Below the pieces are notes generated by a model that saw only the letters and a program-made list of their open reading frames with translations, was not told where the DNA came from and did not search any database. The position numbers and the translations under genes were made by a program. 64,000 nucleotides of DNA from Natrarchaeobius oligotrophus (lineage in GTDB: Archaea; Halobacteriota; Halobacteria; Halobacteriales; Natrialbaceae): NCBI RefSeq assembly GCF_003841465.1, contig NZ_REFZ01000003.1:248001-312000 (forward strand). The letters are read 5' to 3'. Positions 31,572 through 39,570 of this stretch are shown one piece after another. Each line of letters begins with the position of its first letter. The stretch's first letter is position 1.

Positions 31572-31710
31572 CGGGTTTCCGATCTATCAATTTCTTTGGT
31601 TAATTTTCCACTCCGCGTCGTAGTACCAACTACGACGTTCGAAGATACCCTCTCCGTAGTATCAGTTTCGATCTGCTTCCGATTATCAGCTCCGATAACC
31701 GCGGATCACC

Positions 31711-31745: not shown

Positions 31746-34700
31746 ATGAGTATCGTTCGACGGCTGGTGCCGGCGGCGATCCGACGCCGATACACGGTCA
31801 AGCTCGCGATCGTCCTGTTGCTTCTCGGGCTGTCGGTCGGAGCCGTCGGGTTCGTCGCGACCGCCGGCATCACCGACGAGGTGGAACAGCGCGCCGAGGC
31901 GACCCAGCTTTCGCTCGCGGAACGGGACGCACAGGGACTACAGACGTGGCACGAACGAAACGAGCGGACGGTCGAGACGCTCGCCTGGTCGGGAGCCCTC
32001 GAGGGTGACGACCCGGCGGCGATCGAAGACCGGTTACTCGAGTGGCAGTCGGGGGTCGGCGACGAGGCGGTCGCCGTCAGCTACCTCGACACCGCCAACG
32101 GAACGGTGCTCGCGAGCACCGACGAGAGCCTCCGGGATCGATCGATCGACGACGTCGACGGCGTCGATCCCGACGCGCTCGGCGACGACGAGAGCCAGAT
32201 CTCGAGTCCGTACCTCTTCGACGGAGCCGACGGGGAACGAGTCGTCGTCACGTACGTTCGCTCGACGGGGGACGACCGGGCGCTCGCGTACGCGGTCGAC
32301 CTCGAGTCGGAAGGTGCGCAACTCGAGGCGAGCGACCGCGGGGTAACGGTCGTCGTCGACGGCGCGAACGAGATCGTCCTCGACGACGCCGGCTACGGCG
32401 ACGGCTACGAGACGCTCGGGCTCGAGTACGACGACGGATCCGCGGATCTGGCGCGATCCGAGGGCGCGACGACGCGTCAGGCGGCCGCCGGGAGCGCGAG
32501 CGTCCTCGAGTCCTACGGCGTCGGCGACGAGGCGTACGTCGTCGCCGCGGCGCCGGTCGACGGGACGGACTGGGTGGTGCTGGTCCACGAAACCGAGCGG
32601 TCGGCGTACGGAATCGCCGCGATCGTCGACGAGTGGGGCTACGTCGCCTCCGGCATCGCCGCGTTACTGATCGGCCTGTTCGGCGTCGTGCTCGGTCGAA
32701 ACACGGCGTCGTCGGTCGATCGAATCGCGGAAACGACGGCGGACGTCGAGGCGGGGACCCTCGAGGCCACCTTCGAGAGCAAGCGACTCGACAGCATCGG
32801 GCGGCTCTCCGAGGGGGTGGCGTCGATGCGTGATTCGCTCGTCGATCGGATCGAGGAAGCCGAAGCCGCCAGAGACGAGGCCGAGCGGGAACGAGATCGC
32901 ATCCAGCGGCGAGCCGATCGCCTCGAGCGGACGGCCCGAGCGTACGGCGACGTGATCGCGACGGCCGCGGACGGCGATCTGACGGCTCGAATGGACGACG
33001 ACAGCGAGGACGAGGCGATGGCCGATCTCGCCGCGGCGTTCAACGAGATGATCGCGGACCTCGAGCGAGCCGTCGCGAAACTGGATCGGTTCGCGGCGAA
33101 CGTCTCGACGACCGCCGAGCAGGTGACGTCCTCGAGCCAGGAGGTTCGGTCGGCCTCCGAGCGGGTGACCGAGTCCATCCAGGCGATTTCGGCGGGAGCC
33201 GACCGACAGCACGAGTCCCTGCAGTCGGTCGACCGGGAGATGAACGGACTCTCGACGGCGACCGAAGAGATCGCCGCCGCCTCGAGCGACGTCGTCGACA
33301 TCGCGGAGCGAACCGTCGAAACCGGCCGCAGCGGACGCGAAGCCGCGCGTAACGCCGTCGACGCGATGGACGAGATCGAACGGGAGGCAGAAGACGCCGT
33401 CGCGGAGATCCAGCGCCTCGAACGGGAGGTCCAGCAGATCGACGAACTCATCGCGGCCATCTCGGACATCGCGCGCCAGACGAACATGCTGGCGTTGAAC
33501 GCGAACATCGAGGCGTCGCGATCCGTTTCCAGCGAGGAAGAAGAGGGATTCTCGGTCGTCGCACAGGAGGTCAAAGCGCTCTCGGAGGACGTCGCCAGGG
33601 CGGCCAACGAGGCGGAGGACCGACTCGAGGCGATCCGGGAGCGAACCGAGCGCTCCGCCGCCGAAGTCGAGGGAACGAGCGTCGACATCGAGGACGCCGG
33701 CGAGGAGGTGCAGGCGGCCGTCGACGCGCTCGAGGAGATCGCGGACCTCGCCCAGGAGACGAGCGCCGGGGTCAAGGAGATCTCCGGTGCGACCGAAGAG
33801 CAGGCGGCGTCGACTCAGGCGGTCGTCGCCACGGTCGACGACGCGGCCACGGTCTCCGAGGAGACGAGCGCCGCCGCCGGAACGGTCGCGGACGCGGCCC
33901 AGGAGCAGACGAGCGCCCTGACGGAAGTGACGCAGTCGGCGACCCAGCTGACGGCCCACTCGTCCCGGCTGGCGTCGACCCTGGACCGGTTCGAGACCGA
34001 CGTCGATCGAGCCGACCTCGAGGACGCCGACCCCGCGGACGACCTCGAAGCGGGCGACGAGCCGGAATCCGACGGTTCCACGGACGTCCTCGAGTTCGAA
34101 GACGCACCCGAATCAGTCGATCTCGAGGACGAGCCGATCGACGCCGCGACCGGACTCGAGTCCGGGAACGAGGCGGAGCGACCCGATCCGAGCCCGGCGG
34201 ACGGACTCGGAGACGATCCGCTCGAGGACGATCCGCTCGAGGACGATCCGCTCGAGGCCGGGTCGACGAACGAGGCGGACCCGATCGACGGGATCGGCGG
34301 CGACCTGCTCGACGACGCGCTCGAGGAACCGGTCGAAGACGAGTCGGGCGGTGCGGATCCGGTCGCCGACGTGCTCGAGGAGGGGATCACCTTCGGGACG
34401 AGCGAGTCGGCTCTCGAAGCGAGCGACGATCCCCTCGAACCGGCCGACGAATCGGACGACGGCGTCGACGCCGACGGCGAGGACCCCCTCGAGCCGGCTG
34501 CCGACGAGAGAACCGAAACCCGCGAGGAGACTGCCGACTCGACGGCGTCGACCGAAGCCGATTTCGCTCCGGAAGAGTCGTCGGATCCGCTCGCCCCGTC
34601 CGACGCGGACGAAGACGACGGCGTCGACCCGGAGGAGCCCGACCGTGCCGACGAACCGGAGGGTGAGTTGCGGGACGACGATCCCTTGGGTACCGATCCG

Positions 34701-35306
34701 CTCGGCGACGATTCGCTCGCGCTCTCGGACGGCGAGTCGAGCCCGTCGATTCCCGAAGACGAGGTGCCCGACGGCGACGGTTCGCTCGACGACCCCGAAA
34801 TCGGGGCCGACGAGTCTGGAACGGACGGATCCGATCCGATCGTGCTGAACGAATCACGGGCGCTCGAGTCGAGCGAATCGGATCCGCTGGCACCGGCTGA
34901 CCCCCTCGAGTCGGACGAGTCGGAGCGACTGGTACCGGACGAAACGGATCCGCTGGCACCGGAGGAGACGAACCCGGCCGTGGCGGAGAACGACGAACCG
35001 TCCGAAGCCGATCCGCTCGAATCGGCCGAAATCGGTCCGTCCGAGAACGGCGAGAGCGATCCCCTCGAGCCGACCGAAGCCGATCCGCTGGAGGAACTCG
35101 AGGTAGGTTCGTCGGACCGAACCGAGTCGGGCGACGAACCCGTTCCCCTCCAGCCGGTCGAGTCCGGTGACGACGGAAACGACGAACCGGAAGAGATCGA
35201 CGACGAACCGGAGGGAATGGACGAACCGAAAGAGACGAGCGACGAACCGAACGGGAAAAGCGCCGACGACGTATTCACGTTCGGCGGTCCCCTCGAAGAG
35301 GAGTGA
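31746..35306 (+). CDS. Methyl-accepting transducer with long acidic tail
   Basis: The 1186-residue protein has a short cytosolic start and a membrane helix (19-40). An extracellular Cache-like sensor (about 45-290), a second helix (about 300-325), HAMP domains and a signalling coiled coil (about 455-750) follow, the last with SDIARQTNMLALNANIEA at the hairpin tip. It should sense an extracellular cue and signal to CheA. About 435 further residues (751-1186) are disordered and acidic, with fourteen DPL motifs, and end in DDVFTFGGPLEEE. This tail is far longer than in usual transducers. The hairpin tip also carries an inserted SVSSEEEEGF in place of the usual AGExGRGF. Confidence 0.9.
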   Translation: MSIVRRLVPAAIRRRYTVKLAIVLLLLGLSVGAVGFVATAGITDEVEQRAEATQLSLAERDAQGLQTWHERNERTVETLAWSGALEGDDPAAIEDRLLEWQSGVGDEAVAVSYLDTANGTVLASTDESLRDRSIDDVDGVDPDALGDDESQISSPYLFDGADGERVVVTYVRSTGDDRALAYAVDLESEGAQLEASDRGVTVVVDGANEIVLDDAGYGDGYETLGLEYDDGSADLARSEGATTRQAAAGSASVLESYGVGDEAYVVAAAPVDGTDWVVLVHETERSAYGIAAIVDEWGYVASGIAALLIGLFGVVLGRNTASSVDRIAETTADVEAGTLEATFESKRLDSIGRLSEGVASMRDSLVDRIEEAEAARDEAERERDRIQRRADRLERTARAYGDVIATAADGDLTARMDDDSEDEAMADLAAAFNEMIADLERAVAKLDRFAANVSTTAEQVTSSSQEVRSASERVTESIQAISAGADRQHESLQSVDREMNGLSTATEEIAAASSDVVDIAERTVETGRSGREAARNAVDAMDEIEREAEDAVAEIQRLEREVQQIDELIAAISDIARQTNMLALNANIEASRSVSSEEEEGFSVVAQEVKALSEDVARAANEAEDRLEAIRERTERSAAEVEGTSVDIEDAGEEVQAAVDALEEIADLAQETSAGVKEISGATEEQAASTQAVVATVDDAATVSEETSAAAGTVADAAQEQTSALTEVTQSATQLTAHSSRLASTLDRFETDVDRADLEDADPADDLEAGDEPESDGSTDVLEFEDAPESVDLEDEPIDAATGLESGNEAERPDPSPADGLGDDPLEDDPLEDDPLEAGSTNEADPIDGIGGDLLDDALEEPVEDESGGADPVADVLEEGITFGTSESALEASDDPLEPADESDDGVDADGEDPLEPAADERTETREETADSTASTEADFAPEESSDPLAPSDADEDDGVDPEEPDRADEPEGELRDDDPLGTDPLGDDSLALSDGESSPSIPEDEVPDGDGSLDDPEIGADESGTDGSDPIVLNESRALESSESDPLAPADPLESDESERLVPDETDPLAPEETNPAVAENDEPSEADPLESAEIGPSENGESDPLEPTEADPLEELEVGSSDRTESGDEPVPLQPVESGDDGNDEPEEIDDEPEGMDEPKETSDEPNGKSADDVFTFGGPLEEE

Positions 35307-37716: not shown

Positions 37717-37947
37717 ACTCTGGGGTTGGAATCCGTTCCACTTACGCGTGTCGTGTTCCACCGGTGTGACGGACTCCGTCTCGGGGACGCGACTCGACGG
37801 TCGTGCCAGATACGTAACAACTGCACCATAGTTGTTTTAGAAATCGATACGAACAAATGGCGCAGTTGAACCGCAGTACGCTCGAGCGGCCACAATCTTC
37901 ATACAGTTTTGTGTGAGACGTTAACACTGTACTAGTGGTGGGTGACG

Positions 37948-39570
37948 ATGATATTCACATCACGCGGAACGGGAGCTGGGGAGTCGAACGACGAACGACC
38001 GGAGCCGGCATCGACGGCCGACGAATCCGCCGACGGAGTCGATTCGTCCGCCCTGTTAGGACACGTCGTCGACGGGCTCGACAGCGCGGTCGTAATCGTC
38101 GACGATCGAAGCGAGATCGTCGAGGTAAACGCGGAAGCGACCGACCTGCTCGGAATCGCCGAAGCGGACGCCGTGGGGCTTACGCCCGGACAGCTGTACG
38201 GCGTCGGTTCGGACGCGACTCCGCTTTTCGAGCGGGCTCGAGAGCGCGGCGACGAGATTCGAGACCACCGGGAGACGATCGTCATCGACGATCGCGAGCT
38301 CGTCGTAAACCGAACCGTGGTTCCGTTTCTCGAGGACGGAGAGTTCGCCGGCGGAATCGAACTCGTCCGCGACGTCACCGAGGTGGAACGCGAGCGAGAG
38401 CGAACCGAGTTACTCGAGGAGTACCAGCGATCGGTGCTTCGGGACTTCGAGAAAACCGTGACGGCGCTGGGGGAGGGGGACCTCACAGTCGAAACGACGG
38501 TTCCGGAGCCGCCGGAATCGTTCGAAGAGATCCAGACCGTCCACGACCGGTTCGACCGAATGGCCGACGATCTCGACGGTGCGGTCGACAACGTTCGCAG
38601 CGTCGTCGAGACGGTCGACGAACTCTCGGAGGCGCTTCTCGAAACCGGAGACGAGCTAAGCGCGAACAGCGAGGAAGTCTCCGGTTCGATCGACGAGATC
38701 GGCCGTTCGAGCGAGCGGATGGCTGAGGGAACCGCCGAACTCCTCGAAGACGCCCGCGAGGCCGACGAAAGCGCGTCCGATCTGTCGGCGTCGATCGAGG
38801 AGATCACCGCGACGATGGACGAGATCGATCGGACGGCCGAAACCGCCGCGTCACTCGCCGCAGAAGGGCGCTCCGACGGACGGGAGGCCGTCGAAGAGAT
38901 CCGTACCGCCGTCGAGGCTGCCGATCGGATCACCGCGGAGGTCGACGACCTGGAGGAACGGATGGCCCAGGCCGGCGAGATCATCGACGTGATCTCGGAG
39001 ATCGCCGACCAGACGAACCTGCTCGCGCTCAACGCCTCCATCGAAGCCGCCACCGCGGGCGAGGCCGGCGACGGCTTCGCCGTCGTCGCCAACGAGGTCA
39101 AGAGCCTGGCCGAAGAGTCTCGCGAGTCCGCCGACGAAATCGAGCGAATCATCGAGGACGTCCAGTCGCGGACGGACGCCGTCGTCTCCGGTATCGATCG
39201 GATGAACGACGACGTCGCGGACGGTGCGGACGCCGTCGAGACGGTCGTCGACCGCCTCGAGGAGATCAAGACGGCCATCGACGAGACGAGTTCGGGAACG
39301 GCGGACGTCTCCGCGACCGTCGAGACGCAGGCGAGGGACGTCCAGCGGGTCAGCACCCTCGTCGAACGGACCACCGAACAGTGCGACGAGTTCGACGCGA
39401 GCGCCCAGCAGATCGTCGCCGCCATCGAACAGCAGTCGCTGGCGATGGATCAGGTCACCGAGATCTCGAGCGCGCTCAGTCAACGCGTCGACGCGCTCAA
39501 CGACCAGATCGAACGGTTCAAACTCGAACGCGGCGAGACGGCAACCGTCGGCGCCGTCGGTGACGACTAG
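37948..39570 (+). CDS. Soluble PAS-containing methyl-accepting transducer
   Basis: The 540-residue protein lacks membrane segments. A PAS domain (about 35-145: [27 protein letters not shown]) leads to a HAMP-like helical part and the signalling coiled coil (about 235-520). The canonical hairpin tip [43 protein letters not shown] is present. It is therefore a cytoplasmic transducer, possibly sensing redox or a small molecule, that signals to CheA. The ATG at 37948 was chosen; a GTG at 37942 is also possible. It is divergent from pdxS. Confidence 0.9.

Follow-up and report, generated by a model that had tools for sequence, protein, structure and literature searches.

The stretch analysed here, hereafter the window, comprises 64,000 nucleotides of Natrarchaeobius oligotrophus (contig NZ_REFZ01000003.1, positions 248,001 to 312,000), whose 4.6 Mb genome encodes many transducers. 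It holds a gene for a transmembrane transducer (MCP), the features of which are collected in Table 1. The ORF, which is real and in frame, is open from a TTG at 31596, and the ATG at 31746 was considered as the likely start, giving 1186 aa. A dCache_1 domain, the candidate extracellular sensor, is suggested at 19.6 bits, below the Pfam cut-off of 45, and consensus methylation-type E/Q pairs are present (e.g. STATEEIAAASS). The neighbours of the gene (an MFS transporter, a GHMP kinase and a soluble PAS transducer) gave no clue to its function. Two genes downstream (37942-39570), a second transducer, soluble and PAS-containing, has neither an acidic tail nor an FxF motif.

Table 1. Features of the transducer gene, in positions of the window
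Feature	Position	Strand	Basis or detail
Transmembrane transducer (MCP), complete gene, 1186 aa from the likely start	31746..35306	+	ORF in frame
HAMP domain, residues 316-366	32691..32843	+	Pfam PF00672, 31 bits vs cut-off 25
MCP signalling domain, residues 533-703	33342..33854	+	Pfam PF00015, E 4.9e-27, 95 bits vs cut-off 34.6
Acidic tail, 435 aa; body length free among relatives	33999..35303	+	disordered by composition
Internal aliphatic-x-F motif LEFE	34089..34100	+	
Three DPLED copies	34212..34257	+	perfect 15-base tandem repeat
Span of the fourteen DPL motifs	34215..35090	+	motif count
DPL starts	34215, 34230, 34245, 34428, 34482, 34584, 34680, 34695, 34881, 34899, 34947, 35010, 35058, 35082	+	
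Internal aliphatic-x-F motif ITFG (EEGITFGT)	34386..34397	+	recurs in relatives as GITF
Terminal peptide DDVFTFGGPLEEE	35265..35303	+	conserved DD[VM]F[ST]FG core

With 84 D and 81 E, the tail has a net charge of -154 and lies far to the disordered side of the charge-hydropathy boundary; on composition and charge-hydropathy it is almost certainly disordered, and by the same two measures the transducer possesses a flexible linker after its signalling domain. DPL occurs 14 times in it against 0.79 expected (10,000 shuffles, maximum 6), so that the acidic tail of 435 residues with fourteen DPL motifs reported in a preliminary description of this DNA is borne out. The even recurrence of the motifs described there was not recovered: the gaps between them range from 5 to 62 residues, and they are thus unevenly spaced. 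Their DPL(E/A) context holds for twelve of them (E nine times, A three times), the residue that follows being G in the other two. The three DPLED copies form a single perfect 15-base tandem repeat, and are therefore the result of recent duplication.

Five close relatives (57-65% identity across residues 1-751, or across 279-751 in the case of one) have tails of 262 to 516 residues with 2 to 12 DPL, and all keep the terminal motif, hereafter the tip (DDVFTFGETTEE, DDVFTFGETTEKE, DDVFTFGNTDDE, DDVFTFGATDEE, DEGFTFDNPVEDQ). The end called conserved-looking in the preliminary description is thus conserved. The same description had named, as what would speak against its own reading, free variation of tail length and motifs in close relatives that share no conserved end. 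Length and DPL number do vary, and since the end is conserved and DPL recurs specifically in tails of this kind, this objection holds only by half.

Haloarchaeal transducers were compared in a first set (135 of 151 ORFs kept at one stage, 164 distinct ORFs after removal of identical ends) and in a held-out set (106 ORFs from 119 loci, of which 8 were already in the first set and 4 were partial). Tails of at least 30 residues were present in 105 of the 164 distinct ORFs, and 57 of these tails carry an aromatic-x-aromatic motif within their last 22 residues (2.4 expected from shuffled tails, maximum 9 in 1000). This was replicated in the held-out set, with such an end in 62 of 96 tails against 3.1 shuffled, and the tip was found in 0 of 59 transducers with tails shorter than 30 residues. 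Its consensus is D-D-[VM]-F-[TSE]-F-[GVD], typically DD[VM]F[ST]FG, borne on tails 31 to 736 aa long and followed by 2-16 residues. FxF is almost always single and terminal: 16 of the 73 sites are upstream of the final 22 residues, close to the shuffled level (14.4). This speaks against a tip that would act as a receptor-binding sticker, folding back on the bundle or linking arms, with array packing or a condensate as the effect; we consider such a role improbable, although FxFG and repeated DPL in an acidic chain do resemble spaced stickers, and DPL number is free, as with multivalent stickers.

Some tails depart from this simple layout. The longest (736 residues, in locus L093, 11317-15015) has FLF and FDF near its start, FTY further on, and the end DDIFTFGDDQN. 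At two loci of one genome (L248 and L257), EDVFDFGQ is followed by an acidic linker and a small C-terminal domain resembling a helix-hairpin-helix (recognised by eye, not by Pfam). A tail at L284 (about 2750-2845) bears several tandem DD[ETS]F[RQ] repeats and no single FxF end.

A DNA-pattern scan for DD[VMI]F[ST]FG was performed on 117 genomes of the order, using the reversed pattern as control, and returned 29 matches in 24 genomes (0 for the reversed pattern). Eighteen of them are in transducer tails, 10-22 residues before the stop, and 10 are elsewhere; a nineteenth tail match (L176) belongs to an ORF of 471 aa without a signalling domain in the stretch read. As the same ORF also adjoins a transducer in L100, a frameshift is indicated. 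At both loci the FxF end is in another frame than the signalling domain, probably through a frameshift in a draft genome. The codons of the tip differ between genomes, and the constraint therefore acts on the protein. Exact or near forms of the tip occur in the genome groups coded f1, f3 and f7, and variants in f10 (VFDFG), in f12 and f17 (FEW, WEF, FEF, FEY) and in f5 (GFDF, GFAF, GFQFG); the tip is absent from the f4, f8 and f9 transducers examined, and many haloarchaeal receptors have no tip at all. In non-haloarchaeal genomes of the phylum (20 transducer loci, L287-L306, with 21 domain-bearing ORFs), no ORF has the tip near its end; tails there are mostly about 10 residues long, and the match in the second ORF of L301, whose tail has 150 residues, is unrelated and stands 100 residues before the end. 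In a tree of the signalling domains of the 123 ORFs (of 164) in which this domain is full, a single clade of 65 holds 41 of the 47 rows that bear the tip. The tip changes state 16 times over the whole tree, which means repeated losses and probably repeated gains.

Motif enrichment was then considered along the body of the tails. The 39 tip-bearing tails with a length of 100 residues or more contain 97 DPL against 6.9 expected (14-fold), mostly as DPLA (58 against 1.0); without the tail of the window the count is 83 against 5.9, and 20 of the 39 tails hold at least two DPL (0.8 expected). No enrichment was found in 23 tails without tip (1 against 0.9) or in a further 741 acidic segments drawn from ORFs nearby (19 against 25.6); these are stop-to-stop ORFs, so that some of the segments may be non-coding. 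The held-out set gave 27 DPL against 2.7 in 31 tails, and 17 DPLA against 0.4. A second internal class, aliphatic-x-F (GITF, LDFG, INFG), resembles a tip in which the first F has been exchanged; it was enriched in the first set (G[ILV]xF 16 against 1.6, [ILV]xFG 12 against 1.7) and weakly so in the held-out set (3 against 0.9 and 5 against 1.0, respectively). The preliminary description had proposed a search for such tails and ends in other haloarchaeal transducers, where they were found, and in Che proteins. CheA linkers were rejected as a second home of DPL and FxF, as the 219 compared contain 7 DPL (8.6 expected) and 4 FxF (21.9 expected); aliphatic-x-F occurs 43 times in them (27.3 expected). 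Acidic disordered linkers do occur in Natrialbaceae CheA (L083, L084, L093), the longest segment seen having 578 residues and the linkers showing no enrichment in DPL or FxF.

These counts bear on the view that the tail is neutral halophilic filler, grown by local duplication and carrying functionless motifs. The perfect tandem repeat in the window and the wide variation of tail length and motif number among close relatives are what such filler would give; however, the tip keeps a fixed place despite different synonymous codons, and DPL is enriched in these tails, unlike in the other acidic segments and the CheA linkers, with 90 of its 97 contexts distinct, so that we regard this view as very unlikely. 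As the tip and DPL are common to many related receptors, the tail is probably a tether for a partner protein.

A relation between the tip and adaptation was sought in the number of consensus E/Q sites, of which first-set transducers have a median of 6 with the tip and 3 without (non-overlapping pairs). In this set, an independent-pairs test of tip against methylation sites was not significant, and phylogenetic contrasts gave r=0.12, p=0.18 (n=122) with a strict definition of the tip (r=0.18, p=0.14 in the clade of 65 rows) and r=0.30, p=0.0008 with a relaxed one (r=0.45, p=0.00017 in that clade). The relaxed definition had been picked after the strict one failed, and the held-out test was therefore fixed before the new sequences were seen. 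Raw held-out counts, uncorrected for ancestry, were 6.51 sites with the tip and 4.90 without (p=1.9e-6); phylogenetically independent contrasts on this set gave r=0.13, p=0.18 (relaxed) and r=0.06, p=0.52 (strict). Since the ancestry-corrected held-out test failed, the link between tip and methylation sites is a hint at most.

Gene neighbourhoods were examined around cheR. Of 21 genomes, 18 encode CheR, and the remaining three likewise lack any match to the transducer. A long-tailed transducer adjoins cheR in convergent orientation in 7 of these 18, and 6 of the 7 have the tip. Another 80 cheR loci yielded 7 transducers in convergent orientation, at a distance of 105-507 bases, and each of them carries the tip (in a shifted frame for L100). 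Pooled, this makes 13 loci (L094 and G006 being one locus), 12 of them with the tip; the cheR-adjacent receptor of L036 has none. The genomes concerned are related, so these are not 12 independent cases, and the adjacency concerns the che cluster as much as cheR: in L093 the order is cheB, cheA, cheC, double cheC, cheD, cheR, transducer. No tip-specific gene was seen near cheR, L093 being the one cluster annotated. Taken together, the neighbourhood favours CheR or its cluster as the partner.

The pentapeptide that tethers bacterial receptors is defined as xZxxZ (Z = F, W, Y) at the exact C-terminus, and the sole large survey found counts 0 of 2730 Halobacteriales receptors with it and treats receptor tethering as nearly absent in archaea, in the portion of its text that was available (PMC7390727). 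Our transducers agree with this figure (PMC7390727): none of the 164 in the first set and none of the 106 in the held-out set, hence 0 of 270, terminates in xZxxZ. The CheR side leads in the same direction. The closest PDB structure to haloarchaeal CheR is that of B. subtilis (5ftw), and among 99 rows the beta-loop of the haloarchaeal protein is 8 residues long in 89, 9 residues long in a single row and 10 residues long in the other nine; counted on the alignment, it has 12 in Salmonella CheR and 9 in B. subtilis CheR. Long beta-loops accompany pentapeptides and short ones occur without them, according to the accessible part of PMC3062574. An ordinary NWETF-type pentapeptide binding the CheR beta-subdomain, to which the shared layout (a flexible linker and an acidic aromatic peptide near the C-terminus) would point, is therefore hardly credible, given the absence of xZxxZ and a beta-loop of 8-10 residues in all 99 rows. 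Conservation in the Natrialbaceae group is also lower in the beta-subdomain (0.695) than in the remainder of CheR (0.803), and on its short loop and lower conservation this subdomain was rejected as the likely docking site. The tether like a C-terminal bacterial pentapeptide suggested in the preliminary description is accordingly retained as an analogy only, the strict signature being absent and CheR having no long beta-loop. Three genomes (G000, G001, G003) have two CheR copies, and the second type (L067, L070, L075, L077 and others) tends to a beta-loop of 10 residues.

A tether fits best with the fixed tip, the free body, the specific weak motifs, the restriction to transducers and the placement in che clusters. 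Our preferred reading, which we hold tentatively, makes the tail a flexible arm on a transmembrane chemoreceptor. The tip, with DD[VM]F[ST]FG among acidic residues, would be a short docking peptide; this peptide would capture a soluble chemotaxis protein and hold it near the methylation helices of its own receptor and of neighbouring receptors of the array. The captured protein would most likely be an adaptation protein of the che cluster (CheR first, CheB or CheD next), and DPL(A) and aliphatic-x-F along the arm may serve as weaker extra sites that raise its local concentration. The data show the anatomy, a conserved tip, the specific DPL enrichment and, in some genomes, an adjacent cheR; that the motifs bind at all, which partner they would bind and how adaptation would be affected is inferred. 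Several results weigh against this reading: the short beta-loop of CheR and the lower conservation of its beta-subdomain, the cheR-adjacent receptor of L036 without tip, the failure of the methylation-site link after correction for ancestry in the held-out set, and the many haloarchaeal receptors that have no tip.

The tip and motifs might instead dock a partner outside adaptation, such as a coupling protein, CheC or CheF, a polar-positioning factor or another haloarchaeal protein not known so far. A partner particular to the lineage would suit the restriction of the tip to transducers and to haloarchaea, no adaptation to the tip is seen in the CheR beta-subdomain, and the arm of L248 and L257, which runs past VFDFG into a folded domain, makes other cargo possible. 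Against this, no lineage-specific gene was found beside the receptor, its neighbours in L093, the one cluster annotated, being cheB, cheA, two cheC-type genes, cheD and cheR, and we consider a partner of this kind unlikely, while giving it some weight.

The accessible portions of PMC7390727, PMC3579733, PMC2577667, PMC7698151, PMC3062574 and PMC10561060 make no mention of FxF or DPL in haloarchaeal receptors, and no description of the tip was found in the literature searched, in which subscription journals are mostly uncovered. In the available part of an interaction study in Halobacterium, Htr12 is the only receptor fished with CheR (PMC3579733). Ten receptor loci from three genomes presumed, as a guess, to be Halobacterium (G053, G061, G077) are all without tip, and that study, as far as its accessible part goes, is therefore not a test of it. 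The tip offers a bait of 13 residues for partner finding. Effects of tether length on adaptation kinetics were measured for chains of 22-46 aa in E. coli, in the part of PMC10561060 at hand, and arms of 31-736 aa would constitute a natural series for models in which tether length sets these kinetics.

Several known systems can be compared with the tether preferred here. Eukaryotic adaptor-binding tails carry repeated DPF/DPW motifs, and share with the present tails many DP-hydrophobic triplets in a disordered acidic chain; this is an analogy only, with no homology, and adaptors of this type are not known from archaea. DPLA would be an archaeal short linear motif not recognised before. Among the systems whose CheR is independent of pentapeptides (Bacillus subtilis, Thermotoga), the CheR of B. 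subtilis is the nearest in the PDB to the haloarchaeal one, which shares a short beta-loop; however, the receptors of these systems are described without a C-terminal docking peptide, whereas a conserved end exists here. Tar and Tsr (NWETF/NWESF) show the same succession of signalling domain, disordered linker and short acidic peptide, which holds two aromatics close to the C-terminus and is likewise carried by only a subset of the receptors of a genome. They differ in the spacing of the aromatics (i,i+3, against i,i+2 in the haloarchaeal FxF, with 2-16 residues after it), in the linker (about 30-35 aa against 31-736 aa, the haloarchaeal one carrying DPL(A) and aliphatic-x-F) and in the beta-loop of CheR, which is short in haloarchaea. 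In its proposed working the arm resembles a receptor tether; by the two tests made (xZxxZ and beta-loop), it is not of the pentapeptide class. It is possible, and we advance it with more reserve, that haloarchaea have a tether of their own, with a widespread FxF tip, arms reaching more than 700 residues, DPLA and aliphatic-x-F as a graded series of weak sites, and a Che protein that reads them outside the CheR beta-subdomain. This would be a convergent counterpart of the proteobacterial pentapeptide and would overturn the view of halobacterial receptors as devoid of a C-terminal docking peptide; a conserved and differently built tip in many Halobacteriales receptors would mean that tethering arose more than once.
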